Source: Rhodobacterales bacterium
GTDB lineage: Bacteria > Pseudomonadota > Alphaproteobacteria > Rhodobacterales > Rhodobacteraceae
Length of the DNA stretch: 64,000 bases
Direction of reading: 5' to 3'
Assembly (NCBI GenBank): GCA_003249215.1
Contig: QKJR01000097.1
Coordinates: 124,001 to 188,000, forward strand
Each line of letters opens with the position of its first letter. The first letter of the stretch is position 1. The translations under genes and the position numbers were made by a program. The notes under the pieces are model-generated. The model saw only the letters and a program-made list of their open reading frames with translations, was not told the DNA's origin and did not search any database. Of this stretch, positions 49,660 through 64,000 are shown in pieces.

Positions 49660-50096
49660 ACGACGGATCGGACCCGCTCGCCGCGACGCTCTTTGCCGAG
49701 GTCTTCATGACCGATCAGCTCGCGCGCAACCTGATCGGCAAGGCGCTTCCCAAGGGGATGGAGATCTCGCATTTCTCGGTGCTGAACCACCTTGCCCATA
49801 TCGGCGAGGAGCGCACCCCGGCGCAGCTGGCGGCGACCTTCCACGTCACCCGCGGCGCGATGACCAACACACTCTCGAAACTGGTCTGGGCCGGGCACAT
49901 CCATATCCGTCCCGACTGGGACGATGCGCGGCGCAAATTCGTGGCGATCTCGCCCGCCGGGCGGCAGGCGCGCGATGCGGCGCTAGCCTCCTTCATGCCG
50001 GGGATCGCCGATATCGTGCGCGCGATCGGCCCGGACCGGGTGCGTGCCGCCCTGCCCGTGCTGCGCGAATTGCGCACGCGGCTCGAGGAAAGCTGA
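49656..50096 (+). CDS. MarR family transcriptional regulator
   Basis: A 146-residue winged-helix regulator with the MarR core: FSVLNHLAHIGEERTPAQLAATFHVTRGAMTNTLSKLVWAGHI (helix-turn-helix, about 42-85) followed by the wing DWDDARRKFVAISPAGR. It overlaps the nitrilase stop by 4 bases, so it is cotranscribed with comF-grxC-nit. Ligand and targets are unknown. Confidence 0.88.
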   Translation: MNDGSDPLAATLFAEVFMTDQLARNLIGKALPKGMEISHFSVLNHLAHIGEERTPAQLAATFHVTRGAMTNTLSKLVWAGHIHIRPDWDDARRKFVAISPAGRQARDAALASFMPGIADIVRAIGPDRVRAALPVLRELRTRLEES

Positions 50097-50122
50097 GCGC
50101 AGCTCTCTCGGCCCGCTTCCAT

Positions 50123-50150
50123 TTTTCTTCTTGGCCCAAATACGCCCGCC
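50123..50150. repeat. Copy of the intergenic GTATTTGGCCAAGAAGAAA element
   Basis: On the minus strand this reads CGTATTTGGGCCAAGAAGAA, close to the arms at 2349 and 6413. It lies between the convergent MarR and ccrM genes, again in terminator position. Only one arm is clear. Confidence 0.5.
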
Positions 50151-50164
50151 GGAGGCAAGAACGC

Positions 50165-50193
50165 AAAAGGCCCCGCCGGTTGCACGGCGGGGC
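50165..50193 (-). terminator. ccrM terminator
   Basis: On the minus strand GCCCCGCCG and CGGCGGGGC (50193-50185, 50078-equivalent arm at 50070+100, that is 50170-50178) form a 9-bp stem with a 6-base loop, followed by CTTTT. Confidence 0.7.
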
Positions 50194-50261
50194 AAGGTCG
50201 TGCCTGCGGGCGGAACCACAGGCACTGGCGGTAATCGAATGTCAGGAAGCGGGGGCGCCGA

Positions 50262-51386
<1,125 letters not shown>

Positions 51387-51438
51387 TCATCGCCCGTCAG
51401 GGTGTCGCCGACTTGTGCCGGTCTATGGGGTCAAAGAT

Positions 51439-51477
51439 GAGTCAAAGCCGATTCGCCGTCAAATTCTTTTTTGAATC
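51439..51477 (-). promoter_or_regulatory. Three GANTC sites upstream of ccrM
   Basis: GAGTC at 51439-51443, GATTC at 51450-51454 and GAATC at 51473-51477 lie in the rnhB-ccrM gap, 62-100 bases before the ccrM start. The spacings of 11 and 23 bases are about one and two helical turns. GANTC methylation state is known to control ccrM in Caulobacter, so these are candidate feedback sites. Confidence 0.6.
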
Positions 51478-52111
51478 AAGGGGTTATAGATTTATCTTGG
51501 CACAAGATATTGTGCACCGGCTTGAACGAACGCCTATGAACGGGGGTCACCCCCAAATCTAGAAGCGCCTGTTTGTGGTCCTTCGTCGGGTATCCCGCGT
51601 TATGTTCCCAGCCATAGCCGGGGTATTGTTGCGCCAAATCCACCATGAGTGCGTCGCGCACTTCCTTCGCGAGGATCGAGGCCGCAGCGATGGAAAGCGC
51701 CCGCGCATCGCCCCGCACGATCAACTCTGCGCTGAGGTTGAGGCCCCCCGGCATCCGGTTGCCGTCGATCAGCAGGTGATCGGGCGCCTGCCGCAGCCCG
51801 GCGACCGCGCGGCGCATCGCGAGATGGCTGGCCTGCAGAATATTGAGTTCGTCGATCTCCTCGACGCTGGCATGGGCGACCGAGCAGTCGGCCGCCGCGA
51901 GCAGCACCTCGACCAGCGCCGCACGGCGCTTGTGGCTGAGTGCCTTGGAGTCGTTGAGCCCCTCGGGGATCTGGTTTGGATCGAGCACTACGGCGGCGGC
52001 GGTGACCGGACCGCAGAGCGGACCGCGGCCCACCTCGTCGACGCCCGCGACACGGATCAGCCCGCGCGCCTGCGCGGCAAGTTCGAAACTGTAGTCAGGA
52101 CGGGTCTTCAT
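51476..52111 (-). CDS. rnhB: Ribonuclease HII
   Basis: Cleaves the RNA strand at ribonucleotides embedded in DNA. The 211-residue protein has the RNase HII metal site in VAGVDEVGRGPLCGPV (DEG..G), LNDSKALSHKRR, DGNRMPGGL and ASILAKEVRDALM. It ends with the YGWEHNAGYPTKDHKQAL substrate-binding segment. The ATG at 52111 has GAGGGG upstream. The rnhB-ccrM order is typical of alphaproteobacteria. Confidence 0.95.
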   Translation of the reverse strand: MKTRPDYSFELAAQARGLIRVAGVDEVGRGPLCGPVTAAAVVLDPNQIPEGLNDSKALSHKRRAALVEVLLAAADCSVAHASVEEIDELNILQASHLAMRRAVAGLRQAPDHLLIDGNRMPGGLNLSAELIVRGDARALSIAAASILAKEVRDALMVDLAQQYPGYGWEHNAGYPTKDHKQALLDLGVTPVHRRSFKPVHNILCQDKSITP

Positions 52112-52150
52112 TCCCCTCTCCTGCCGCGCACCTGCGCCCTGTGCAACGAA

Positions 52151-52175
52151 AAAGCGCGGGGGTTTCCCCCCGCGC
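52151..52175 (-). terminator. Terminator after the small secreted-protein gene
   Basis: On the minus strand a 9-bp stem (GCGCGGGGG/CCCCCGCGC with a GAAA loop, 52175-52154) is followed by TTTTTCG. It ends transcription of the gene at 52201-52572 before rnhB. Confidence 0.85.
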
Positions 52176-52200
52176 GTCACTCGTTACGCATGGCGCCGGT

Positions 52201-52572
52201 TCAGCGACGATAGTAGCGGTCGCCGCGGCTCTCGCGGCAGCCCGGGCTGTAGACTTCGACGCGGCGGCCGTGGCGGTCGCGCTCGATGCGCACCGTGCAG
52301 CTATCCGCGCGGCGATCCCGATAGCGACGGTCGTCATGGCGGTAATCGCGATGCTCGACCCGCATCGGCGGGCGCACCGGCTCGGGGGCGTAGCTGCGGC
52401 GGCGATCTTTCTGGCCATCGGCCAGAACCGCGACGGCGCCGATCCCGAGGATCAGGCCGAGCGCGTTGCGTTCTTCGCGGGTCATCGCACTCGCGGAGGC
52501 GGCGGTCAGGCTGGTCAGCGCGAGGGTGGCGGCGACCAGAGCGGTGGTCAGGCGGGGAAAGGTGAAGGTCAT
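52201..52572 (-). CDS. Small secreted Arg/Asp/Tyr-rich protein of unknown function
   Basis: The 123-residue precursor has a clear signal peptide (LTTALVAATLALTSLTAASASA, cleavage near residue 29). A hydrophobic stretch LGLILGIGAVAVLADG, probably membrane-associated, comes next. The C-terminal half is dense in Arg, Asp and Tyr and holds two cysteines (DSCTVRIERD, SPGCRESRGD) that may pair. Similar small exported proteins with DRRYRDRR-like tails are common in Rhodobacterales; none I know has a function. GAGGA precedes the ATG. It is divergent from the regulator operon and shares its promoter region. Confidence 0.75.
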   Translation of the reverse strand: MTFTFPRLTTALVAATLALTSLTAASASAMTREERNALGLILGIGAVAVLADGQKDRRRSYAPEPVRPPMRVEHRDYRHDDRRYRDRRADSCTVRIERDRHGRRVEVYSPGCRESRGDRYYRR

Positions 52573-52650
52573 GGGCGGGTCCTCGGTTCGGGCGGGGCGC
52601 ACCCCGCTGGTTGATGAACGAACCCTCGGCCCGGATGGTTCCGCCACGCA

Positions 52651-52710
52651 ATAACAGCCCCCTGTTATCCGATAACCAAGGCGCCAACCCCTTTTGGCTA
52701 TTGCATAACA
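52651..52710 (+). promoter_or_regulatory. Overlapping ATAAC inverted repeats in a divergent promoter region
   Basis: ATAACAG (52651-52657) pairs with CTGTTAT (52662-52668). The latter overlaps GTTATC (52664-52669), which pairs with GATAAC (52671-52676). A fourth half-site ATAACA lies at 52705-52710. They occupy the 163-base gap between the divergent secreted-protein genes, upstream of the membrane-anchored winged-helix regulator, and may be its operator. Confidence 0.45.
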
Positions 52711-52735
52711 TCGGCTGCGCGCGCAGCCTCGGAGC

Positions 52736-53029
52736 ATGATGAAAGCCACGCTCCTTCCCCTTGCCTTCGGCCTCGCACTCGCCGCGGCCAGCCCCGCCGG
52801 GGCCGCCTGTTATACCGATTACAAGGCCAAGCAGGACAATCCGCTGCAACTGCATTACGGGGTGGCCGAGCTGCCCGACAACGCCTGTTCGCCACAGGCG
52901 GCGGCCCGCGCATTGGCGCCGCGGCTGGCGCGCGGGGGCTGGACGCTGCTGAATATCCTGTCCATTTTCGGCCCCGAGGGGCTCGATCAGAGGAAGGCCA
53001 GTGCCGGACAATATTTCCTCCGTTACTGA
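52736..53029 (+). CDS. Small secreted protein coupled to a membrane regulator
   Basis: The 97-residue precursor has a signal peptide (cleavage near AGA-AC, residue 24). The mature part of about 73 residues has two cysteines (ACYTDYKAK and NACSPQAA), likely disulfide-bonded, and a C-terminal part LARGGWTLLNILSIFGPEGLDQ...GQYFLRY. I do not recognise the family. GGAG is just upstream; the second ATG at 52739 is equally possible. The last 29 bases overlap the next gene, so the two are translationally coupled and probably work together. Confidence 0.78.
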   Translation: MMKATLLPLAFGLALAAASPAGAACYTDYKAKQDNPLQLHYGVAELPDNACSPQAAARALAPRLARGGWTLLNILSIFGPEGLDQRKASAGQYFLRY

Positions 53030-53720
53030 GGGCCCGATCGCCGCGGGCCTCCGCCGAGGCAATCGCGCCGTGCTCTGGGGCATCGCGGGCATCGCGGGCA
53101 TCCTCGCGCTGGCCGCGGCGCTGCTCTTCGTCTCGCTGCCGGATGCCAATGCCTTCAACGCCCGCGTGGAACGGATCTTCGTGGAAAACGACGCGCTGAC
53201 CCAGCCGGGCGAGATCAAACTCTTGGAGGTGCTGGCGCAATCGGGCACCGCCTTCGCCGAGGTGCTCAGCTCTTATCGCCTCATCATCTTCATCCTTCTG
53301 GTCTTCGCGACCGCGCTGATGGTGGCGGCGCTGGTGCTTCTGCTGACCCTCGTCGATCTGAACCGCCGGATGTCCGAGATCCGCCGCTCGGGCATCGAGG
53401 TGCAAGGTCTGCGCATCCTGCGCGGCGAGAACGCCGTGGTGCTCAATGACATGGCCTTCACCCTGACCCCAGCCGCCATCGAGACGCTCGCCGTGCTGGC
53501 CGAGGCACGGATGGACGACGAATTCCTGACCGGCGCCCAGATCGAGGCGATGATCTCGGGCAAACCCGAGGCCGATTGCGACGAGGCGGCGGGCGCCACG
53601 CGGATCAAACGGCTGCGCGATGCGATGGGCAATGCGCTCGTCAGCGAGCTTCTGGTGCGCAATGTGTCACGCAAGGGTTACACGCTCGCCGTAGCCAAGG
53701 AAGCGATCCGGGTCGACTAG
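53001..53720 (+). CDS. Membrane-anchored OmpR-type winged-helix regulator (ToxR-like logic)
   Basis: The 239-residue protein has two membrane helices (about 23-46 and 92-118) with a roughly 45-residue loop between. The C-terminal domain (130-239) reads as an OmpR/PhoB winged helix: FTLTPAAIETLAVLAEA, then TRIKRLRDAMGNALVSELLV and NVSRKGYTLAV. Positive residues before helix 1 and after helix 2 (LNRRMSEIRR) place the DNA-binding domain in the cytoplasm and the loop in the periplasm. It is therefore a one-component membrane regulator with the winged helix at the C-terminus, opposite to ToxR. The start is a GTG at 53001 with AGGAAGG upstream, overlapping the secreted-protein gene. Confidence 0.75.
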   Translation: MPDNISSVTEGPIAAGLRRGNRAVLWGIAGIAGILALAAALLFVSLPDANAFNARVERIFVENDALTQPGEIKLLEVLAQSGTAFAEVLSSYRLIIFILLVFATALMVAALVLLLTLVDLNRRMSEIRRSGIEVQGLRILRGENAVVLNDMAFTLTPAAIETLAVLAEARMDDEFLTGAQIEAMISGKPEADCDEAAGATRIKRLRDAMGNALVSELLVRNVSRKGYTLAVAKEAIRVD

Positions 53721-53813
53721 ATCTGCGGGCCCAATCACCTTGCGTCGCGGGGTCCGGGGGCCTATATCGCGGCTTCACTTTGCCACCGGGAACTTTGTCT
53801 CTAGGGGGAGCCC

Positions 53814-54920
53814 ATGATTCCGACGCCCTTCTATCTGATCGACGAAGCCCGCCTTCTCGAAAACATGCACAAGATCGCGCGGCTGCGCGAGTTGTCCGGG
53901 GCCAAGGCGCTTCTGGCGCTGAAATGCTTCGCGACATGGGGCGCCTTCGAGGCGATGAAGCCGCATATGGATGGCACAACCTCGTCCTCGCTCTTCGAGC
54001 TGCGGCTGGGGCGCGAGAAATTCGGCGGCGAGACCCATGCCTATTCGGTGGCCTGGTCGGATGGGGAAATCGACGAGGCGATCAGCTACGCCGACAAGAT
54101 CATCTTCAACTCGCTTTCGCAGCTCGACCGTTTCGGCGCCAAGGCGGCCGAGAAGGGGATCGAGGCCGGTCTGCGGCTGAACCCGCGGTTCTCGACCTCC
54201 GGCTTCGATCTGGCCGATCCGGCGCGGCCGTTCTCGCGGCTGGGCGAATGGGATATGGAGCGGCTGGAAGCCGCCCTGCCCCGGATCTCGGGCGTGATGA
54301 TCCATTACAACTGCGAGAACCGCGATTTCGATCTCTTCGATCAACAGCTCGGCCGGATCGAGGCCGAGTTTGGCGATTTTCTGAAAAAACTGAAATGGGT
54401 CAGCCTCGGCGGCGGCATCCATTTCACCGGCGAGGGCTATCCGCTGGAAGCCTTGGCCGCGCGGCTCAAGGATTTCTCGGAACGGCTCGGCGTTCAGGTC
54501 TATCTGGAACCCGGCGAAGCCTCGATCACCCAATCGACCAGCCTCGAGGTCAGCGTTCTCGACATCATCGACAACGGCAAGCAGGTCGCCATCGTCGACA
54601 GCTCCATCGAGGCGCATATGCTCGATCTGCTGATCTATCGGGAAACCGCCAAGCTGCCGCAGGACGGCGAGCACCCCTATCAGATCGCGGGCAAGACCTG
54701 CCTTGCGGGCGATATCTTCGGCGAGGGGAAATTCCCCGCCCCCCTGCAGATCGGCGACCGGATCAGCATCGCCGATGCCGCCGGCTATACGATGGTCAAG
54801 AAGAACTGGTTCAACGGCGTGAACATGCCGGCGATCGCGATCCGTCGCGCCGATGGCAATGGCACGGTCGAACTGATCCGCAGCTTCACCTATGAGGATT
54901 ACGCCTCGTCGCTTTCGTGA
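53814..54920 (+). CDS. nspC: Carboxynorspermidine decarboxylase
   Basis: PLP-dependent decarboxylase of the alanine-racemase-fold family that converts carboxynorspermidine or carboxyspermidine to the polyamine. The 368-residue protein has the PLP lysine in LLALKCFATW (near residue 41), IHYNCENRDFDLFD, the SLGGGIHFTGEGYPL glycine motif and YLEPGEASI. The C-terminal catalytic segment is AGKTCLAGDIFGEGKF. GGGGGAG lies before the ATG. It is followed 75 bases later by the enzyme that makes its substrate. Confidence 0.93.
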   Translation: MIPTPFYLIDEARLLENMHKIARLRELSGAKALLALKCFATWGAFEAMKPHMDGTTSSSLFELRLGREKFGGETHAYSVAWSDGEIDEAISYADKIIFNSLSQLDRFGAKAAEKGIEAGLRLNPRFSTSGFDLADPARPFSRLGEWDMERLEAALPRISGVMIHYNCENRDFDLFDQQLGRIEAEFGDFLKKLKWVSLGGGIHFTGEGYPLEALAARLKDFSERLGVQVYLEPGEASITQSTSLEVSVLDIIDNGKQVAIVDSSIEAHMLDLLIYRETAKLPQDGEHPYQIAGKTCLAGDIFGEGKFPAPLQIGDRISIADAAGYTMVKKNWFNGVNMPAIAIRRADGNGTVELIRSFTYEDYASSLS

Positions 54921-54995
54921 AGGCGCGCCCGCGCGCTTTCGGTCCGGGCCTGAGCGGCCCCCTTCCCCTGTCCTGAAGAAAAGGAGACAGCAGAA

Positions 54996-56243
54996 GTGAA
55001 ACGTAACGTGTTGATCATCGGCGCCGGTGGTGTCGCGCAGGTCGTGGCGCATAAATGCGCGCAGAACAACGACATTCTGGGCGATCTGCATATCGCCTCG
55101 CGCACGCAGGCCAAATGCGACGCGATCATCGCCAGCGTTCACGAGAAGGGCGCGATGAAGGTTGCGGGCGTGTTTCAGTCCCATGCCGTCGATGCGATGG
55201 ACAGCGCGGCCGTTGCGGCCCTGATCCGTGCGACCGGGACCCAAATCGTGATCAACGTGGGCGCGCCTTTCGTCAACATGTCCGTGCTCGACGCCTGCAT
55301 TGAGACCGGCGCGGCCTATCTCGACACGGCGATCCACGAAGATCCGGCCAAGATCTGCGAAACGCCGCCGTGGTATGGCAACTACGAATGGAAGAAGCGC
55401 GATCTCTGCGCCGAGAAGGGCGTGACCGCGATTCTTGGGATCGGCTTCGATCCGGGTGTGGTCAACGCCTTCGCGCGCTTCGCCGCCGATGAATATATGG
55501 ATGAGGTCACCTCGATCGACATCGTCGACATCAACGCGGGCTCGCACGGCCGCTATTTCGCGACCAACTTCGACCCCGAGATCAACTTCCGTGAATTCAC
55601 CGGCACGGTCTATTCCTGGCAGGGCGGCACATGGGTCGAGAACAAGATGTTCGAGGTCGGCCGCGACTGGGATCTGCCGGTCGTCGGCACCTGCCGCGCC
55701 TATATGTCGGGCCATGATGAGGTGCATTCGCTCGCCGCCAACTACCCGAACGCCGATGTGCGCTTCTGGATGGGCTTCGGCGATCACTATATCAACGTCT
55801 TCACCGTGCTGAAGAACCTCGGCCTGCTTTCGGAACAGCCGGTGAAAACCGCCGAGGGGCTCGAGGTCGTGCCGCTCAAGGTGGTCAAGGCGGTGCTGCC
55901 CGACCCGTCGAGCCTTGCGCCCGACTATACCGGTAAGACCTGCATCGGGGACCTCGTGAAGGGCACCAAGGACGGCAAGCCGGTCGAGGTCTTCGTCTAT
56001 AACGTCGCCGATCACAAAGAGGCCTTCCTCGAGGTTGGCAGCCAAGGCATTTCCTACACCGCGGGCGTGCCCCCGGTTGCAGCGGCGATGCTGGTGGCCA
56101 CGGGCGAATGGGATGCCGGCACGATGAAGAACGTCGAAGAGCTCGACCCGAAGCCCTTCTTCACCGTGCTCGACCGGATCGGCCTGCCGACGCGGGTGAT
56201 CGAAGGCGGGCTGAGCGGCACCGACAAGGCCTGGAACGCCTGA
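54996..56243 (+). CDS. Carboxynorspermidine synthase (saccharopine dehydrogenase family)
   Basis: NAD(P)H-dependent enzyme that condenses aspartate semialdehyde with a diamine to give carboxy(nor)spermidine, the substrate of NspC. The 415-residue protein has the Rossmann motif VLIIGAGGVAQVVAHKCA at the N-terminus, INVGAPFVNMSVLDACIETGAAYLDTA and GFDPGVVNAFARFAADEY. The start is a GTG at 54996 with AAGGAG well placed. In alphaproteobacteria this route makes spermidine without S-adenosylmethionine decarboxylase. Saccharopine dehydrogenase for lysine metabolism is the alternative, but the nspC neighbour favours polyamine synthesis. Confidence 0.92.
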   Translation: MKRNVLIIGAGGVAQVVAHKCAQNNDILGDLHIASRTQAKCDAIIASVHEKGAMKVAGVFQSHAVDAMDSAAVAALIRATGTQIVINVGAPFVNMSVLDACIETGAAYLDTAIHEDPAKICETPPWYGNYEWKKRDLCAEKGVTAILGIGFDPGVVNAFARFAADEYMDEVTSIDIVDINAGSHGRYFATNFDPEINFREFTGTVYSWQGGTWVENKMFEVGRDWDLPVVGTCRAYMSGHDEVHSLAANYPNADVRFWMGFGDHYINVFTVLKNLGLLSEQPVKTAEGLEVVPLKVVKAVLPDPSSLAPDYTGKTCIGDLVKGTKDGKPVEVFVYNVADHKEAFLEVGSQGISYTAGVPPVAAAMLVATGEWDAGTMKNVEELDPKPFFTVLDRIGLPTRVIEGGLSGTDKAWNA

Positions 56244-56247
56244 TCCT

Positions 56248-56278
56248 CGCGCAAGGCCCGCTCCGGCGGGCCTGCGCG
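56248..56278 (+). terminator. Hairpin after the polyamine genes
   Basis: GGCCCGC, loop TCCG and GCGGGCC (56255-56261, 56266-56272) form a 7-bp stem, extended by CGCGCA/TGCGCG with one bulge. No T tract follows. Confidence 0.6.
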
Positions 56279-56754
56279 AATCCGTTCGCCGGCCCGTTCC
56301 GGCTACTCTCCATTTCCTCTTTTTTACAGAGCGCCCGATTATCGACGGAAGCCGCAGTTCTGGCGATGAATTGCCGGGCACCCGACGAATTGCCCGAGCG
56401 CTTCACCGCTTGGACCGAGGCCTGGCGCAGCGGTGCTGCCTGCCGTCGAGCGGCCAGCGACAGAGGGCGGATCATCGCATGCGCCGCAACAGCGCAACGC
56501 CATGCGAGGAATGATGATGGCGATCGGGACTCAGTTTTATATTATATATATCAATGTATTATAAAAATTTTTATCTTCTGCTCGGTGCATATGGGCCGGC
56601 AGGTGCCATCCCGTTACCGCCACTTTCGGGTACGACTTTGCGCCCCTGTCTGGTGACGAGACGCCATTTCAGATCCGCTCGGAGACCTCGTTTCGGACCG
56701 CTTTTTTCCCGAAATCCGGCCGCGTGAATTTCACAAGTCAGATTCAACATTTTC
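56279..56754. other. Long intergenic region with an AT-rich island
   Basis: Between the polyamine genes and the iac cluster there is no gene I can support. A short open frame from 56368 has no SD and runs through the AT-rich part. Around 56533-56580 the sequence turns abruptly into almost pure A/T (TATATTATATATATCAATG and AATTTTTATC), unlike anything else in this GC-rich window. No transposase, tRNA or clear direct repeat is seen at the edges. This may mark the insertion boundary of the catabolic cluster. Confidence 0.6.
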
Positions 56755-56790
56755 TTGACGTGGCCATTTTTACATGAATGTTACTGTAAA
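56755..56790 (+). promoter_or_regulatory. Candidate iac promoter with a MarR-type operator
   Basis: TTGACG at 56755-56760 is a good -35. The -10 is poor (ATGTTA at 56778-56783 after 17 bases). Overlapping it, TTTACA (56769-56774) and TGTAAA (56785-56790) form an inverted repeat with a 10-base spacer. The position 44 bases before the first gene suits repression by the MarR regulator at the end of the cluster. Confidence 0.45.
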
Positions 56791-56833
56791 TAGGCGCGAC
56801 AAAACGCCGCCACATCCTCAACCGGGAAGCCAT

Positions 56834-57997
56834 ATGACCGCCTCTTCAGCGGGCGATGCCGTGCTGGTCCGACACCTGTCTCTGGGTGGCGAAGGCCCGA
56901 CGGTCGTCGTCAAGGATTGCATCGACATCGCCGGCACGGTCACCGCCTGTGGCTCGGCGGCCTTCGCCGCAGCGCCACCTGCCACCGCCCATGCGACCGT
57001 GGTCGAACATCTGCTCCGGTCGGGATGCCGGATCGTCGGCAAGGCCAATATGCATGAGCTGGCCTTCGGCATGACCGGGGTCAACACCACCTTCGGCACA
57101 CCGGTCAATCCGCATTGGCCCGACCGCATCCCGGGCGGCTCATCCTCGGGCTCGGCGGTCGCGGTGGCGGCGGGGCTCTGCGATTTCGCGGTGGGCACGG
57201 ATACCGGCGGCTCGGTACGCCAGCCGGCGACCTGCTGCGGCGTCTTCGGCATCAAGCCGAGCTTCGGGCGCATCGACCGCACGGGCCTCTCGCCCCGCAA
57301 CAGCTCGCTCGATTGCATCGGCGTCTTCGCACGAAGCATCGACATGCTCGAAACCGCGATGGCGGCGATCGACCCGAGCTTCAGCCGCATGGCGCTCGCC
57401 GGTGCGCCGCGGCTCGGCCGCATCAAGTGCAGCGGCGTCGAGCCCGCGGTGGGCGATCCGCTGGTCTATGCGCTGATGGATGCCTATCCGGATATGATCT
57501 ACGAGCGATTGCCCCATATGGAGGCAGCCTTCGCGGCGGGTATGACGGTGATTTCCCACGAGACGGCGGCGGCCTTCGGGCATCTGCTCGACGAGGGCGC
57601 CCCCCTCGGCGCGGATATCCGCAAGCGCCTTGCGGCGGCGCGCGAGGTCAGCGCCGCGCAGCTGGCCGAGGCCGAGGACATCCGCCGCCTCTTCACCGCC
57701 GAGGTGGATGCTCTGCTCGAACGCCATGACGCGCTCGTCACCCCGGCGCTGCCCGTCGTGCCGCCAACCCTCGAGGAAGCGAAGGATCCGCAGACGATCC
57801 TGCCGCTCACGCGCTTCCTGCGCCCGTTCAACCTCAGCGGCCACCCCGCGATCACGCTGCCTGCCCGCAGCGTCGAGGGGCTGCCGATCGGGCTTCAGAT
57901 CATCGGACGCAAGGGCGAAGACGCCCGGCTCTGCGCCGTGGCGCGCTGGCTCGTTGATTGCGTTCCGCTGTTTCAGTCAAAGGACACCCACCAATGA
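56834..57997 (+). CDS. iacH: Amidase-signature hydrolase of the iac cluster (IacH-like)
   Basis: A 387-residue amidase-signature enzyme. The Ser-cisSer-Lys triad is in VVVKDCIDI (Lys near 29), PGGSSSGSAVAVAAG and GTDTGGSVRQPA. The protein is shorter than many amidases but ends normally (GLPIGLQIIGRKGEDARL). In known iac clusters an amidase gene (iacH) accompanies the auxin-degradation enzymes, and its exact step is not settled. The ATG at 56834 has GGAAG upstream; the ATG at 56774 lies in the operator and has no SD. The next gene overlaps by 4 bases, making this the first gene of the operon. Confidence 0.8.
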   Translation: MTASSAGDAVLVRHLSLGGEGPTVVVKDCIDIAGTVTACGSAAFAAAPPATAHATVVEHLLRSGCRIVGKANMHELAFGMTGVNTTFGTPVNPHWPDRIPGGSSSGSAVAVAAGLCDFAVGTDTGGSVRQPATCCGVFGIKPSFGRIDRTGLSPRNSSLDCIGVFARSIDMLETAMAAIDPSFSRMALAGAPRLGRIKCSGVEPAVGDPLVYALMDAYPDMIYERLPHMEAAFAAGMTVISHETAAAFGHLLDEGAPLGADIRKRLAAAREVSAAQLAEAEDIRRLFTAEVDALLERHDALVTPALPVVPPTLEEAKDPQTILPLTRFLRPFNLSGHPAITLPARSVEGLPIGLQIIGRKGEDARLCAVARWLVDCVPLFQSKDTHQ

Positions 57998-59145
57998 CCC
58001 ATCTTTCCAAGCTGGCCGCGGATCAGGCCGATGACGCGCTCTATACCTCAGTTCTTGACGAGATCCGCGCGCGCCGTGCCGAGTTTACCAAGCTGCGCCA
58101 CGTGCCGCCCGACATGGTGCGCAAGCTGCAGCAGATCGGCGCCTATCGTGCCTTCGTGCCCGCGCGCTTCGGCGGCGACGCCAAGAGCCCGGCCGAATTC
58201 TGCAAGCTGATCGAGGATATCTCGGCCGCGGACGCCTCGACCGGCTGGGTCGCGAGCTTCGGCGTCTCGGCCACCTATCTCGCGGCGCTGCCGCCCGAAA
58301 CCTATGCCGCGATCTACGGCGCCGATCCCGATGCGGTCTTCGCGGGCGGCATCTTCCCGCCGCAGCCGGCCGAGAAGGTCGACGGCGGCTTCAAGGTCAA
58401 CGGGCGCTGGTCGTGGTGCTCGGGCGTGATGGGCGCCTCGGTCGTGGGCGCGGGGATCAAGGTCACCGGCGACGCGACACCGTTGCCGCGCATGGCGGTG
58501 ATGCCGCGCGCCAAGGTGCGGGTCGATGAGACCTGGAACACCATCGGCCTCTCGGCGACCGGCTCGCATGACGTCGTGGTCGAGGATGTGGTCGTGGCGC
58601 CGGAATGGACCTTCATCCGCGGCGGCGCGCCGAGCATGGACGATCCGGTCTTCCGCTATCCGGCGATGGCGCTGGCTGCGCAGGTGCTGGCGGTCGTGGC
58701 GCTCGGGGCTGCCCGTGAAGCGCTCGATTTCCTCGTGGCTGACGCGCGCGAACGCGCCTCGATCACCGGCGCGCCGAACCCCGGCGCGCGGCCCTATGTG
58801 CAGGCCGAATTCGCCAAGGCGCAGAGCCTTCTGATGGGCGCGCGGGCCGCCTTCTACGACACAATCGAGGCCGCCTGGGACGAACTCAAGCGCACCGGTG
58901 ACGTCTCGCCCGACATGAAGGTCCGGCTGCGGCTGGTGGCGACCAAGGCCGCCCGCGACGGGGCGGAGGCTGCGCGCATCGCCTTCGTCATCGGCGGCTC
59001 GGGCGTGATGGAGACCGGGCACACGCTCGGGCGCTGCATGATCGACGCGGCCTGCGTCGCCCAGCACGCCTTCATGGGCGAGGGCACATGGACCGCCGCC
59101 GGCGCCGCCTTCTTCGATCAGCCGAACATGCCCGGCTATCCGTGA
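57994..59145 (+). CDS. iacA: Flavin-dependent monooxygenase, acyl-CoA-dehydrogenase fold (IacA-like)
   Basis: Probable first enzyme of indole-3-acetate breakdown, using reduced flavin and oxygen to hydroxylate the indole ring. The 383-residue protein has the acyl-CoA dehydrogenase/HpaB-DszC fold: VPARFGGDAKSPAEFCKLIEDISAADASTGW in the N-terminal domain, FKVNGRWSWCSGVMGASVVGAGIKV in the beta domain, and a C-terminal helical bundle (VIGGSGVMETGHTLGRCMIDA). It lacks the catalytic base pattern of true acyl-CoA dehydrogenases, as group D monooxygenases do. The start overlaps the amidase stop (ATGA). The reductant partner is the flavin reductase at 63085. Confidence 0.85.
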   Translation: MTHLSKLAADQADDALYTSVLDEIRARRAEFTKLRHVPPDMVRKLQQIGAYRAFVPARFGGDAKSPAEFCKLIEDISAADASTGWVASFGVSATYLAALPPETYAAIYGADPDAVFAGGIFPPQPAEKVDGGFKVNGRWSWCSGVMGASVVGAGIKVTGDATPLPRMAVMPRAKVRVDETWNTIGLSATGSHDVVVEDVVVAPEWTFIRGGAPSMDDPVFRYPAMALAAQVLAVVALGAAREALDFLVADARERASITGAPNPGARPYVQAEFAKAQSLLMGARAAFYDTIEAAWDELKRTGDVSPDMKVRLRLVATKAARDGAEAARIAFVIGGSGVMETGHTLGRCMIDAACVAQHAFMGEGTWTAAGAAFFDQPNMPGYP

Positions 59146-59191
59146 GCCCCGCACCCGGCCCCAGAGACATTTTCCGCAAAGGACGAAACCG

Positions 59192-59554
59192 ATGACCGAG
59201 ACGAAACCGATCCGCACCCTTCTGTGCTTCAACAACCACGCTGCCTTCTTCAGCCTGCCCTTTGATCAGATCGGCCCGGTCTGGAAAGCGACGCAGGAAC
59301 TGATGGCCTCGATCGACCAGATGGATGGCGTCGAGATTGTCGGCACCTTCGACGACGATCAGACCTTCGTCGGCGCCTCGGTCGGCTTCCCCTTCACCTG
59401 GTACATCATGGCCGATTTCCCGTCGCGCGAGGCGGTGCAGGCGGCCTGCAACCTGCTGCGCACGATCGTCGTGGGCGAAGGCAACGACCGGCTGTGGAAA
59501 TACATGACCGTCGAGGCCCGCATGGGCCGCGCGCTCGAAATTCCGAAACTCTGA
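59192..59554 (+). CDS. iacB: Small protein of the iac cluster (IacB-like)
   Basis: A 120-residue soluble protein, MTETKPIRTLLCFNNHAAFFSLPFD... ending ARMGRALEIPKL, with no signal or membrane segment. Hydrophobic and aromatic spacing (VGFPFTWYIMADFPSREAVQAACNLLRTIVVGEG) suggests a compact alpha/beta-barrel dimer like Dabb or EthD proteins, but I see no defining motif. The position between the IacA-like and Rieske genes, and the size, match iacB, whose function is poorly defined. A weak GGACGAAACC precedes the ATG. Confidence 0.75.
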   Translation: MTETKPIRTLLCFNNHAAFFSLPFDQIGPVWKATQELMASIDQMDGVEIVGTFDDDQTFVGASVGFPFTWYIMADFPSREAVQAACNLLRTIVVGEGNDRLWKYMTVEARMGRALEIPKL

Positions 59555-59601
59555 CCCATTCCCGTGGGGGCCCCGGCCCTCACCAACCGAAAGGAGCCGA
59601 C

Positions 59602-60879
59602 ATGTCGCTCGACACCCTGAAATTCAGCGATCTCGACGCCCTCTACGACGAAGAGAACGCCCTCGTCGCGACCTCGATGTACGAAGATCCCGACCTCTTC
59701 GCCGAGGAGATGGAGAAGATCTTCAAGAACACCTGGGTCTGGGTCGCGCATGAAAGCGAATTCCCCGACAAGGGGTCGTTCAAACTGAGCAACGTCGGCC
59801 TCGAGCCGGTCATCGTGGTGCGTGACCGCAAGGGCGTGATCCACTGCATGGTCAACCGCTGCCGCCACCGCGCCGCGACCGTCTGCGAAGTGAAGAAGGG
59901 CAAGACCTCGTCCTTCCAATGCCCCTATCACGGCTGGGGCTATGGCCTCGACGGCAGCTTGCGCGCGCTGCCTTACCCCGAGCAATACGGCGACGATTTC
60001 AACAAGGAACAGCACGGGCTGCTGAAGCTGCGGACCGAGGCCTATAACGGCATGGTCTTCGCGACCTTCAAGGAAGACATCGAGCCGCTCGAGGAATTCC
60101 TCGGCCCGGCGGTGTGCCGCTATATCGACCTCTTTATGAAACAGGGCGGCGGCTTCCCGGTGAAGGTTCTGGGCGAGCATCAGTTCTCGGTTCCGATGAA
60201 CTGGAAGGTGCAGCTCGAAAACACGACCGACGCCTATCACTTCCCGATCGTGCACAAGTCCTTCATGCAGACGCTCGACGGCGCGACCGAAGAGATGTTC
60301 GACTTCCTCGACAAGGGCCGCGGCTGGGTCGAGGATCTGGGCAACGGGCACTCGATCATGATGATGATCCCCGAGCTCGAGGATCTCGACGCCGATCTCG
60401 ACCAGCCGATCCCCGAGCGCTTCGAGGAATTGGCCGCCGAGATCCGCGCCGAGGGCTACCCCGAGGATCAGGTCAAGAAGATCGTGCGTGCGGTCGGCGG
60501 GGCAGGGTTCAACCTCAACCTCTTCCCGAACGTCTCGTTCTCGCTCGCCTTCTTCCGCGTGCTGACCCCGATCAACGTCGAGAAGACCGACATCCGCCAC
60601 ATCGCGATCGGCATGGACGGCGGCCCCGATGCGGCCAACCAGATGCGCCTGCGCCTGCACGAGCATTTCCAGGGCCCGATGGGCTTCGGCTCGCCCGATG
60701 ACGCCGAGGTCTGGGAGCGCGTCCAGCGCGGCACCAAGGGCGGCGAGACCCTGCCGATCCTCGTGAACCGCGGCCTCGTCGACGAGGAACCCGGTCCGAC
60801 CGGTCCGCGTGGCCATATCTCGGCAGAGACCGGCATGCGCGCCGCCTACAAAATGTGGAAAAGGATGATGTCGAAATGA
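59602..60879 (+). CDS. iacC: Rieske ring-hydroxylating oxygenase, alpha subunit (IacC-like)
   Basis: Catalytic subunit of the dioxygenase that opens the way from the oxidised indole acid to catechol. The 425-residue protein has the Rieske ligands C87-x-H89 and C107-x2-H110. The mononuclear iron site is in NTTDAYHFPIVHKSF (D210, H213, H218), with a later Asp expected near GGPDAANQMRLR. Length and domain order are normal for an aromatic dioxygenase alpha subunit. AAAGGAG lies before the ATG at 59602. Its last 4 bases overlap the beta-subunit start. Confidence 0.9.
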   Translation: MSLDTLKFSDLDALYDEENALVATSMYEDPDLFAEEMEKIFKNTWVWVAHESEFPDKGSFKLSNVGLEPVIVVRDRKGVIHCMVNRCRHRAATVCEVKKGKTSSFQCPYHGWGYGLDGSLRALPYPEQYGDDFNKEQHGLLKLRTEAYNGMVFATFKEDIEPLEEFLGPAVCRYIDLFMKQGGGFPVKVLGEHQFSVPMNWKVQLENTTDAYHFPIVHKSFMQTLDGATEEMFDFLDKGRGWVEDLGNGHSIMMMIPELEDLDADLDQPIPERFEELAAEIRAEGYPEDQVKKIVRAVGGAGFNLNLFPNVSFSLAFFRVLTPINVEKTDIRHIAIGMDGGPDAANQMRLRLHEHFQGPMGFGSPDDAEVWERVQRGTKGGETLPILVNRGLVDEEPGPTGPRGHISAETGMRAAYKMWKRMMSK

Positions 60880-61370
60880 CCGAGATGAGCAAGATCGACA
60901 CCCGTGCCCTTCTGGCGGACGTGACCGAATTCATCTGGGCCGAAGGCGCGATGCTCGACGCCAAGGAGTATGACGCCTGGCTTGAGCTCTGGACCGAGGA
61001 CGGGCTCTACATCATGCCGATGGGGGCGGGCGACGATTACAAGAACCAGCTGAACCTGTGCTACGACAACGCCAAGATGCGGCGCGATCGGATCGGCCGT
61101 TTCCAGCGCGGCTTCTCGATTTCCTCGGCGCCGCCAGCCGAGACGGTGCGCACGCTGTCGCGCTTTCGGATCGAAGCGGCCGAGGGCGATCTGATCACCG
61201 TCTCCTGCGCCGAGCATCTCGTCGAGGACAAGTTCGGCCGTCAGCGGATCTGGGCGGGCAATGCACTCTATACGCTCAAGGTGACGGATGGTGGCTTCAA
61301 GCTGCACGGCAAGATCGTGCGTCTTCTGAACTCTGACGGGATGCTGAATTCGTTCAGCTATTTGTTCTGA
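60876..61370 (+). CDS. iacD: Ring-hydroxylating oxygenase, beta subunit (IacD-like)
   Basis: Small structural subunit of the Rieske dioxygenase. The 164-residue protein has the NTF2-like beta-subunit pattern: FIWAEGAMLDAKEYDAWLELWTEDGLYIMPM, IGRFQRGFSISSAPPAETVRTLSRFRIE and GNALYTLKVTDGGFKLHGKIVRLLN. The ATG overlaps the alpha-subunit stop (ATGA) and has AAAAGGATG upstream, ensuring equal synthesis. Its stop overlaps the start of the damaged SDR gene by one base. Confidence 0.9.
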   Translation: MTEMSKIDTRALLADVTEFIWAEGAMLDAKEYDAWLELWTEDGLYIMPMGAGDDYKNQLNLCYDNAKMRRDRIGRFQRGFSISSAPPAETVRTLSRFRIEAAEGDLITVSCAEHLVEDKFGRQRIWAGNALYTLKVTDGGFKLHGKIVRLLNSDGMLNSFSYLF

Positions 61371-62109
61371 TGGCGGCGCCGCTTCCCGAACAGATCCAGA
61401 CCGCGGTGGTGACCGGGCGGTCTGCCGGGCGCTGCACAAGGCGGGCTACCGCGTGGTGATCACCGACGCGGTGCTGGGCGATGAGGCCACGGCGCTGGCC
61501 TCGGAGCTCGACCTTGCGGGCGAGACCGCGATCACCGCGACGCTCGACATCTCGAAGCCCGGCGACTTCCAGGAGGTGCTCGACAAATGCGTCGAGCGCT
61601 GGGGCTCGGTCGAGGTGCTGGTGAACAACGCGGCCCGCACCATGGCGCAGCCGCTGATGGACATCGATCCCGTGGTCTTCAACGAGATCATGGCGACGAA
61701 CGCCGGCGGCACCTTCGCCGGCAGCCAGATCTTCGCGCGTCACTTCAAGGCGCGCGGCTATGGCCGGATCGTCAACATGGCCTCGCTCGCCGGGCAGAAC
61801 GGCGGCACGGCGACGGGCGCGCATTACGCGGCCTCGAAGGGGGCGATCCTGACCCTGACCAAGGTCTTCGCGCGCGATCTGGCGCCCTTCGGCATAACCT
61901 GCAACGCGATTGCACCGGGTCCGATGGACACCCCCATGGTGCGCGGCGTGGTGGGCGACAATGTCGAGGCCTTCCTGAAGAATATTCCCGTCGGCCAGTT
62001 CGGCGATCCCGATTTCGTCGCCAAGATGGTGGTGATGCTGGCCAGCCCCGAAGCGGCCTTCGTCACCGGCGCCTGCTGGGACGTCAATGGCGGTCTTTAT
62101 GTGAGGTAA
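61370..62109 (+). pseudogene. iacE: Short-chain dehydrogenase/reductase with frameshift in the cofactor loop (IacE-like)
   Basis: From the ATG at 61370 the frame reads MAAPLPEQIQTAVVTG and then leaves the family pattern, reaching a stop at 61457. The rest of a normal SDR continues in another frame from about 61414: RAVCRALHKAGYRVVITDA, then VLVNNAA, MASLAG, HYAASKG and CNAIAPGPMDTPM. The expected TGxxxGIG cofactor loop is missing. Between T (61412-61414) and the V of AVCRAL there are 5 bases where about 27 would be expected, so roughly 22 are lost. A GTG at 61453 could start a truncated protein but would lack the nucleotide-binding strand and loop. The catalytic Ser/Tyr/Lys are intact, so the damage is probably recent, or it is a sequencing error. 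Confidence 0.8.
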
Positions 62110-62111
62110 GC

Positions 62112-63074
62112 ATGACCGAGACGAAACAGACCCTGAAGGTCAGCGCCCGCATCCTCGACCGGGGCGACATCGCCCGCATCCGCTTCGTCCCCGAAGCAGG
62201 CGGCCCGATTGTCCCGTTCACAGCGGGGGCGCATCTCGACCTCTACCTGCCCGAACTCGACCTCTGGCGGCAGTATTCGCTCTGCTCTGATCCGGCCGAG
62301 ACCGGCTTTTATGAGATCGGCGTGCTCAAGGATCCGAAGAGCCGCGGCGGTTCGCTCAAGGTGCATGAAACTGCCGTTGAAGGCGCGACCTTCCGCGTCG
62401 AGGGGCCGCGCAACCACTTCCCGCTTGCGGAAGAGGCCGCAACCACGGTGCTGCTCGGTGGCGGCATCGGCATCACGCCGATGATCGCCATGGCGAAACG
62501 TCTGCACGCGATCGGGCGCGACTTCACGCTGCATTACTGCACCCGCTCCGAAGGTGTCACCGCCTTCCTCGACGAGCTGAAGGGCTGTGATTTCGCCGAC
62601 CGCGTCGTCTTCCACTTCGACGATCAGGACGCAGCGCAACGCCTTGATCTGACAAACGATCTGCCCGCGCCTTCGGCCGATACACACCTTTACGTCTGCG
62701 GGCCGCAGGGCTTCATGGACTGGGTGATCAATACGGCTGAGGCCGCAGGTCACGCAACCGCCAACGTCCACCGCGAATATTTCTCGGCCGATGTCGATCT
62801 GACCGGCGCGGGCTTCGAGGTGGAATGCGCCAAAAGCGGTCTGACCATCACCGTCGGCCCCGATGACACGATCGCCAAGGCGCTCGCCAAGGCCGGGATC
62901 AAGATCGAGGTGAAATGCGAAGAGGGTGTCTGCGGCACCTGCCTGACCGATGTCCTCTCGGGCGAGATCGACCACCGCGACCAGTTCCTGACCGAGGAGG
63001 AACGGGAGGACGGCGACGTGATCTGTGCCTGCTGCTCGCGCGCCAAGGGTCCGAAACTCGTGCTCGATATCTGA
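62112..63074 (+). CDS. iacF: Oxygenase reductase with FNR and plant-type [2Fe-2S] domains (IacF-like)
   Basis: Passes electrons from NAD(P)H to the Rieske oxygenase. The 320-residue protein has an FMN/NAD-binding FNR part (RQYSLCSDP; VLLGGGIGITPMIAMAKRL; LYVCGPQGFMDWVI). The C-terminal ferredoxin domain has ligands C269-x4-C274-x2-C277-x29-C307. This is the vanillate-demethylase-reductase layout. It starts 3 bases after the SDR stop; AGG is close to the ATG. The order after the SDR matches iacE-iacF. Confidence 0.88.
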   Translation: MTETKQTLKVSARILDRGDIARIRFVPEAGGPIVPFTAGAHLDLYLPELDLWRQYSLCSDPAETGFYEIGVLKDPKSRGGSLKVHETAVEGATFRVEGPRNHFPLAEEAATTVLLGGGIGITPMIAMAKRLHAIGRDFTLHYCTRSEGVTAFLDELKGCDFADRVVFHFDDQDAAQRLDLTNDLPAPSADTHLYVCGPQGFMDWVINTAEAAGHATANVHREYFSADVDLTGAGFEVECAKSGLTITVGPDDTIAKALAKAGIKIEVKCEEGVCGTCLTDVLSGEIDHRDQFLTEEEREDGDVICACCSRAKGPKLVLDI

Positions 63075-63084
63075 GGAGATGCCG

Positions 63085-63585
63085 ATGACCCCGTCACCGA
63101 CCCAGCTCGACTTTCGCGAAGGCATGAGCCGCCTCGGTGCGGCCGTGAACCTGATCACGACCGACGGCCCGGCCGGGCGCCACGGCCTGACCGCCTCGGC
63201 GGTCTGCTCGGTCACCGACAGCCCGCCGACACTGCTGGTCTGTGTGAACCGCAACGCCTTCGCGCATGACCGCTTCGTCGAGAACGGCGTGCTCGCGGTC
63301 AATGTGCTGGCCGCCGAGCATCAGGCGCTCTCGGGCCTCTTCGCGCGCTACGTCGAGGGCGTCGACCGCTTCGCCGAAGGCGACTGGATCACCGGCGACA
63401 GCGGCGCGCCGATCCTCGCCGACGCGAATGTCGCCTTCGACTGCCGCATCGCCGGACGCCAGCAGGAGGGGACGCATTCGGTCTTCTTCTGTGAGGTGCT
63501 GGGTGTCCATCTGACCCCCGAGGCCCGCCGCGGCCTCGTGTGGTTCGGGCGCGACTATCATCACCTGACGGCGGAGAGCCGCTGA
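63085..63585 (+). CDS. iacG: Flavin reductase (IacG-like)
   Basis: Supplies reduced flavin to the IacA-like monooxygenase. The 166-residue HpaC-type protein has FREGMSRLGAAVNLITTDGPAGRHGLTASAVCSVTDSPPTLLVCVNR and FCEVLGVHL...GRDYHHL. The ATG at 63085 is preceded by GAGGAG, whereas the ATG at 63079 is too close to it. It is the last gene of the operon on this strand and is convergent with the MarR gene, 17 bases apart. Confidence 0.9.
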   Translation: MTPSPTQLDFREGMSRLGAAVNLITTDGPAGRHGLTASAVCSVTDSPPTLLVCVNRNAFAHDRFVENGVLAVNVLAAEHQALSGLFARYVEGVDRFAEGDWITGDSGAPILADANVAFDCRIAGRQQEGTHSVFFCEVLGVHLTPEARRGLVWFGRDYHHLTAESR

Positions 63586-63602
63586 TGACGACGGCACGCG
63601 GC

Positions 63603-64000
63603 TCAGATCATCTTGCCCAGATCGGCGCTGATCTTGCGCAGGATCGCGTTGAGCGTTTCCAGCTCGGCGGGCGAGACGTGAAAGAAGCTCTCGTCGCGAA
63701 TGCGATCGACCTCGCCCATTGCCTGAGCGCGCAATTTTTCACCCTTTTCGGTCAATCGCACCTCGGTCACGCGCCCGTCATTCGGGCGCACCCGGGTTTC
63801 GACCAGACCGTCGAGGATCAGCCGTTGCACGATCTTCGTCGTCGTGTTGAGTTTGACGTTCGAAAACTCGGCGATTTCCGAGACGGACATGTAGCCCTGC
63901 TGGAAGAGCGTCATGATGACACGCCAGCGCGGCGCATCGACGCCCATCGGTTTGAGCCGCTTTTCGAGGGCCATCGTGTAGTAGGCATTGGCCCGGTTGA
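63603..64000 (-). CDS. iacR: MarR family regulator of the iac cluster (IacR-like), N-terminus beyond the window
   Basis: A MarR winged-helix protein, partial at its 5' end: the frame stays open to the window edge, with NRANAYYT in frame before the ATG at 63974. The visible part has RWRVIMTLFQQGYMSVSEIAEFSNVKLNTTTKIVQRLILDGLVETR (helix-turn-helix) and the wing RPNDGRVTEVRLTEKGEKL. In known iac clusters a MarR repressor (IacR) responds to indole-3-acetate. It is convergent with the operon, so its control of the promoter at 56755 would be in trans. Confidence 0.85.
   Translation of the reverse strand, partial: NRANAYYTMALEKRLKPMGVDAPRWRVIMTLFQQGYMSVSEIAEFSNVKLNTTTKIVQRLILDGLVETRVRPNDGRVTEVRLTEKGEKLRAQAMGEVDRIRDESFFHVSPAELETLNAILRKISADLGKMI

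Follow-up and report, generated by a model that had tools for sequence, protein, structure and literature searches.

The end of a 64,000-nucleotide stretch (hereafter the window) from the draft genome of a Rhodobacterales bacterium (assembly GCA_003249215.1, contig QKJR01000097.1, positions 124,001 to 188,000) carries a compact gene cluster that is another iac cluster of the known type, with a damaged iacE in the assembly. Gene content, gene order and regulator type all point to a real iac-type cluster for the degradation of the auxin indole-3-acetic acid (IAA) whose iacE is broken as assembled, and we regard this best explanation as very probably correct.

Gene content, order and regulator type

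Eight genes follow one another on the same strand (56834-63585) and the 3' part of a MarR gene lies convergently on the opposite strand (63603-64000), as the first-pass annotation of this DNA had described. The overlaps it mentioned between neighbouring genes are also there: 4 bases in H/A and C/D, 1 base in D/E. The order iacH-A-B-C-D-E-F-G with a convergent iacR is that of other proteobacterial iac clusters. In the following list the identities are those to the plasmid cluster of A. baumannii and then to seven alphaproteobacterial clusters, the eight together coming from a plasmid collection.

56769..56790, + strand: predicted IacR operator, the 22-bp palindrome TTTACATGAATGTTACTGTAAA, found before iacH by inverted-repeat search
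56834..57997, + strand: iacH, amidase, 387 aa (PF01425, 257 bits; 45% and 56-63%, that is 45-63% to the first gene of the eight clusters)
57994..59145, + strand: iacA, group D flavin monooxygenase with acyl-CoA-dehydrogenase fold, 383 aa (46% and 65-71%)
59192..59554, + strand: iacB, 120 aa, without Pfam family, named by homology to the plasmid-collection clusters (46% and 60-84%)
59602..60879, + strand: iacC, Rieske oxygenase alpha subunit (PF00355, PF00848; 62% and 68-90%, up to 93% in Celeribacter)
60876..61370, + strand: iacD, Rieske oxygenase beta subunit, 164 aa (PF00866; 44% and 55-79%)
61370..62109, + strand: iacE, short-chain dehydrogenase/reductase (SDR), frameshifted by a 22-nt deletion after 61417, from its family match and comparison with relatives (48% and 74-79%)
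62112..63074, + strand: iacF, 2Fe-2S/NAD reductase of the Rieske system, 320 aa (PF00111, PF00175; 46% and 62-76%)
63085..63585, + strand: iacG, flavin reductase, 166 aa (PF01613, 132 bits; 24% and 61-69%)
63603..64000, - strand: iacR, MarR regulator, 3' part, from PDB matches (51-56% in the three alphaproteobacterial clusters with a match); the reading frame runs 73 bases past 64000, to a start at C81:188073 (C81 being the window's contig)

The Pfam families found are amidase, acyl-CoA-dehydrogenase fold, Rieske alpha, Rieske beta, SDR, 2Fe-2S reductase, flavin reductase and MarR. They agree with the families claimed earlier for the amidase, both Rieske subunits, the reductases and MarR, but the SDR is not an intact gene. 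A motif check found the amidase, Rieske and 2Fe-2S motifs in the cluster proteins, and iacC has both the Rieske C-H/C-H and the D..H....H motifs. The iacC and iacD genes are adjacent, as in an iac-like locus, and overlap by 4 bases. The curated libraries contain no Iac enzymes, and IacR is the only Iac protein that turned up among the solved sequences, so the identity of the cluster was judged by named neighbours in clusters of the same order. The best curated matches of the monooxygenase (HsaA) and of the Rieske alpha subunit (HcaE) lie far under their cut-offs, and the nearest relatives sit in same-order clusters.

The regulator can be compared with characterised proteins. The best PDB matches of the MarR protein are 7KUA (the P. 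putida IacR, 8e-28), 7L19 (2.1e-24) and 7L1I (1.5e-20), the latter two coming from the same paper as 7KUA and being, by elimination, other IacR structures, while IadR (7KFO) follows at 1.8e-6. By these matches the window MarR belongs to the IacR group. Tyr44 of P. putida IacR contacts the IAA carboxylate (PMC9613470), and its equivalent appears to be conserved in the window IacR if, as the numbering implies, the crystal chain has a 24-residue tag. An iad-type locus was considered and rejected on the type of the MarR protein and on a search for the indolepyruvate-oxidoreductase family (PF01558, iadB-type), which has a single match in the assembly, on contig C63, and none on C81; among the iad features sought (iadA/iadB markers, IadR-type MarR), iadA had no profile search of its own.

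According to PMC9613470, iacA, iacB and iacI are the markers of iac-type loci. The first two are in the window and a relative of the third lies 7.3 kb beyond it, truncated by the contig end. The earlier statement that neither iacI nor a transporter is visible holds for the window alone, but the contig extends 7.7 kb past the window end and carries an iacI relative and two sets of genes for a TRAP (tripartite ATP-independent periplasmic) transporter:

C81:188206-191069: first TRAP set, named by homology
C81:191079-192110: ketopantoate-reductase-like gene, named by homology
C81:192390-195322: second TRAP set, named by homology
C81:195338-195670, - strand: iacI relative, NTF2/SnoaL-like, named by homology and truncated by the contig end

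In Sagittula, Shinella, Gemmobacter, Martelella and Azospirillum the gene found divergently upstream of iacH is 76-84% identical to the iacI relative; the A. baumannii gene in the iacI position between B and C is 36% identical to it. The ketopantoate-reductase-like gene is seen again in Thioclava, and the Marinomonas iac region is listed with a 2-dehydropantoate reductase and a class II aldolase (PMC11373566).

In order to place the cluster among its relatives we kept 80 genome loci out of 388 found and added the eight plasmid-collection loci, 88 in all. The complete set of H, A, B, I, C, D, E, F and G is present in 59 of the 80 genome loci, and C occurs in the same locus as A and B in 75 of the 88, a grouping that exceeds chance. 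The amidase at the front and the MarR gene at the far end had been singled out as notable variations; both are common, as H is just upstream of A in 70 of the 75 loci with H, A and C, and a convergent MarR gene directly follows G in 32 of the 45 having R, G and C. In the 65 of 80 genome loci that have I, B and C, the commonest position of iacI is upstream of H in divergent orientation (41); it lies between B and C in 15 and downstream in 9.

In the IacA tree (90 sequences) the sister of the window protein is that of Salipiger abyssi (100/98), within a Celeribacter-rich group of ten (100/99), which fits the earlier description of the genome as Rhodobacteraceae-like. The loci of Salipiger abyssi SY10-16 (L040) and Celeribacter spp. 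(L037-L039, L041-L044) are 85-87% identical to the window in IacA and 89-93% in IacC and share its operon order, convergent MarR gene and TRAP genes; in Salipiger abyssi the reductase-like gene and the second TRAP set are present as well, arranged as on the window's contig. Their iacE, however, retains the NAD-binding motif, four Celeribacter loci have the second TRAP set and iacI upstream, and the 16-kb Salipiger abyssi locus has no iacG or iacI match. A plasmid of Martelella sp. AD-3 (L010) repeats the arrangement H-A-B-C-D-E-F-G, MarR(-), TRAP(+) in the same order as the window, but its iacI is divergent upstream of H, and a hydroxyquinol-dioxygenase-like gene and an aldehyde dehydrogenase gene lie upstream.

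The clusters of P. putida 1290, A. baumannii and Marinomonas have the same enzyme and accessory families as the window, and iacR is a MarR gene in P. putida and Marinomonas. The order is H-A-B-(I)-C-D-E-F-G on the A. baumannii plasmid pTS134338, and presumably H-A-B-I-C-D-E-F-G in P. putida 1290. The latter cluster is printed as iacABCDEFGRHI in PMC11373566. There are two differences. Firstly, iacI lies between B and C on the A. baumannii plasmid and in Marinomonas, whereas in the window's contig its relative is found on the opposite strand, about 7.8 kb beyond iacG. Secondly, the transporters linked to iac are of the TRAP type in the window's contig and of the branched-chain ABC type in Marinomonas (PMC11373566). 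The iad loci of Variovorax and Bradyrhizobium are described as also degrading IAA, with iacCD-like and MarR genes, but with anthranilate as the end product (PMC9613470); the window's contig is without an iadB-type gene and its MarR protein is far nearer to IacR.

Several points weigh against reading the locus as a functional iac cluster. Apart from the disrupted iacE, the A. baumannii plasmid cluster serves as a stand-in for characterised enzymes, its IacG is just 24% identical, and its 21-kb locus gave no MarR match. Furthermore, Halomonas-type loci combine an A protein of about 52% identity with a C protein of about 78%, so that parts seem exchangeable and the substrate could shift. We consider it unlikely that the cluster acts on another indole or aromatic acid and not on IAA. 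IacA and IacE of Caballeronia glathei are reported to accept indole-3-propionic and indole-3-butyric acid as well (PMC7225977), and HsaA, although far below its cut-off, is the nearest curated NCBIfam model to IacA; the IacR-type regulator, the iacI relative and the presence of the published iac-type markers (PMC9613470) argue for an iac cluster directed at IAA.

A few observations on individual genes and loci are added here. IacB, whose role is described as unclear (PMC7225977), has no Pfam family at 0.001 and nothing better than E 0.02 across 55 sequences; 24 residues are invariant in 48 sequences, among them Cys12, Asp54-56, Cys86, Arg90, Trp102, Arg110 and Arg113. An Rfam scan of 50000-64000 returned 0 families. 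In the Halomonas/Vreelandella loci L106, L108, L110 and L111, IacA is 52-53% identical to the window but IacC, D and E are 69-78% identical, a mix that suggests an exchange of parts between clusters. Nine alphaproteobacterial loci (L078, L092, L093, L094, L095, L098, L101, L102 and L103, of which L095 and L102 are short) contain iacA, B, E and G, with C, D, F and H not seen in the available sequence and a MarR gene in eight of them; a survey anchored on iacCD would miss these loci. In a Rhodospirillum metagenome-assembled genome (L107), H-C-D-F and A-B-E-G form two blocks separated by a TRAP set, as if iac had been built from two modules.

The damaged iacE and the accessory island

The proposed steps follow the published pathway. 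IacR would occupy the palindrome before iacH and release it on binding IAA, which may be taken up via the adjacent TRAP transporter. Using reduced flavin supplied by IacG, IacA would oxidise IAA to 2-oxo-IAA, IacE would convert this to dioxindole-3-acetic acid (DOAA), and IacCD with IacF, aided by IacH, IacB and IacI, would turn DOAA into the ring-cleavage substrate. Substrate, repression, transport and every catalytic step are predictions from the sequence.

The iacE gene is disrupted. Its ATG frame from 61370 ends after 29 codons, and the remaining SDR is in a different frame. In comparison to Gemmobacter, Sagittula and Martelella 22 nt are missing within the TGGAxGxG-coding stretch (32 vs 54 nt between shared codons), and this deletion after 61417 causes the frameshift and the loss of the Rossmann TGxxxGxG motif; the Ser-Tyr-Lys motif is retained in the downstream frame. 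TGxxxGxG is found near the start in 86/86 related E genes, a set that includes weak SDR matches down to 45%, and is absent from the window iacE. The intactness of the cluster implied by the first-pass annotation is therefore lost at this gene: iacA reads through, iacE does not. IacE is described as making DOAA from 2-oxo-IAA (PMC7225977), so the route as assembled would stop early, at 2-oxo-IAA, provided that the deletion is no assembly error and that no other SDR substitutes; with iacE disrupted, this copy may not work. The break lowers the claim of a working copy, not the claim of an iac cluster.

We put the chance that the deletion is genuine, which would mean that the island is decaying and that the bacterium no longer fully degrades IAA, slightly below even. 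A genuine deletion is supported by the interrupted frame, by the loss of the Rossmann motif that all related E genes retain, and by the failure to find a second IacE in the 82%-complete assembly, the next SDR being 36% identical. On the other side, none of the remaining cluster genes is interrupted by a stop, and this speaks against a long period of decay; in a draft of 102 contigs, the loss of 22 GC-rich nucleotides can also be an error of assembly.

The cluster is an accessory island, without counterpart in the 17 other genomes of the same genus that were examined, where IacC and IacA find matches of at most 34% and 36%, respectively. The gene flanking the cluster is present in 18/18 genus genomes, 79-89% identical in the other 17, and colinearity with relatives ends at 56197-56273 in all eight examined; the first gene after the flanking gene varies among relatives. 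Horizontal transfer fits the IacA tree, which places the window beside Salipiger abyssi in the Celeribacter-rich group. The same placement next to other genera, together with the reported contamination of the assembly (4.45%), could also mean that the contig is a contaminant. We rejected this very improbable explanation on flanking synteny, since the gene beside the island is conserved in all 17 other genus genomes and colinear stretches reach the junction in 8/8. A candidate second iac cluster on contig C76 (L034, C76:1-6191, 6.2 kb) was rejected as well, since the available sequence does not make up a full iac cluster. Besides an IacA relative of 40% identity, it holds a V4R-like gene, an ABC transporter and, truncated at the contig end, a Rieske fragment, and is maybe another aromatic-acid cluster.

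A candidate IacR operator before iacH

The palindrome before iacH is the sole match to its own sequence within 5 mismatches in the window and the downstream contig, and in the whole assembly it has one match at 0 mismatches (the iacH site) and one at 3 mismatches, on contig C62. An alternative iacH ATG at 56774 falls within the palindrome (56769-56790). When up to 5 mismatches are allowed, the consensus TTTACGTGAAWWTTACYGTAAA, which was derived from the same loci in which it was counted, is found before H in 60 of 62 alphaproteobacterial loci and in 21 of 1692 control stretches. When the window's own site is used as the query at the same threshold, the numbers are 31 of 62 loci and 3 of 1689 control stretches. 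AT-rich stretches match within 5 mismatches in 89 of 576 cases, and in 35 of 481 when taken away from H or A, many of these being LysR-side or TRAP sites. The palindrome is also found before A in eight loci that have A, B, E and G without C, D and H; these eight include L048, which has F, and exclude L093 and L103.

IacR is the probable protein that binds the palindrome. Over the 88 loci, within the available sequence, 45 have a MarR gene without a LysR gene of this type, 15 have both, 4 have only LysR and 24 have neither, and the last two groups (28 loci) speak neither clearly for nor against the binding of the palindrome by IacR. In the window's cluster no palindrome shared with the MarR-DctP intergenic region was found, so control of the TRAP genes by IacR is unsupported in the window. 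The palindrome is a new, directly testable candidate IacR operator common to Alphaproteobacteria.

A possible hydroxyquinol end route

The palindrome also recurs beyond iac itself. In relatives, 19/19 intergenic regions that part a LysR gene from a linked operon contain it, with 2 to 5 mismatches. The predicted products of this operon are maleylacetate reductase, hydroxyquinol 1,2-dioxygenase and aldehyde dehydrogenase; the reductase and an intradiol dioxygenase are present in 16 of the 19, and in L057, L062 and L072 only the aldehyde dehydrogenase was found. We tentatively speculate that a large alphaproteobacterial iac subtype with iacI outside B-C, the window included, may route the auxin ring via hydroxyquinol and maleylacetate and not via catechol and muconate, with iac and the linked operon as one regulon under the 22-bp palindrome, even though we think it rather less likely than the opposite.

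The Gemmobacter dioxygenase matches hydroxyquinol dioxygenases (8R2X, 417 bits; 1TMX, 276) over catechol dioxygenases (144 or less), while in NCBIfam the nearest models are chlorocatechol and catechol dioxygenase, below cut-offs, and no hydroxyquinol model matched. The reductase matches maleylacetate reductases with 412 bits, and the aldehyde dehydrogenase is nearest to StyD, below its cut-off. Of 52 long loci in which I lies elsewhere than between B and C, 22 have both the reductase and the dioxygenase gene near iac, compared to 0 of the 15 with I between those two genes, B and C (Fisher 0.0013); 12 of the 88 loci, shorter than 20 kb, were excluded to give a 76-locus count, and 8 of the 75 loci with C were excluded from this 67-locus row. 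Among the same 52 loci catC is found in 2 and catB in 4.

The genome-wide tally covers 49 of the 80 genome loci (L046 is not among them), in hand-sorted groups, with six of the A-B-E-G type in neither group. A hydroxyquinol-type dioxygenase (57% identity or more) is present in 24 of 33 subtype hosts and in 1 of 10 others, three of the counted matches having one in-frame stop in the aligned stretch (G048, G057, G080), and catC is present in 14 of 33 and 2 of 10, respectively. Of the 33 subtype hosts, 11 have the dioxygenase without catC, 13 have both and 8 have neither. Some hosts without the hydroxyquinol-type enzyme carry a second intradiol type (41-44%). The base rate of the dioxygenase is 14 of 119 in other genomes of the window's family, compared to 11 of 18 Rhodobacterales subtype hosts, five of them Celeribacter, with the window included (Fisher 1.2e-5) and 10 of 17 without it (4e-5). 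The subtype was defined after seeing the data, and these counts and tests ignore kinship.

There are arguments against a hydroxyquinol route. Of the 33 hosts, 8 have neither gene and 13 have both, the chemistry is unexplained, and the published iac product is catechol. The window genome has both routes away from iac: catB, catC and catA with a pcaD-like gene on contig C84, as read from the open reading frames, and on C96 what reading and homology indicate to be a hydroxyquinol-type cluster. Its own dioxygenase copy is not under the palindrome and belongs to a cluster seemingly for another phenol such as resorcinol. The data suggest, but do not prove, that in many such bacteria the auxin ring passes through hydroxyquinol, not catechol.

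The iac pathway is presented as one of two known aerobic routes of bacterial auxin removal, with loci for IAA degradation surveyed across 221 genera, and iac-type and iad-type degraders affected roots differently when tested in a community (PMC9613470). The cluster described here adds an accessory iac copy to a genus whose other examined genomes have none. Both the operator and the hydroxyquinol link emerged as side results and merit testing, and the candidate hydroxyquinol end route, which is directly testable, bears on the acknowledged gap that separates DOAA from the ring-cleavage substrate (PMC7225977).

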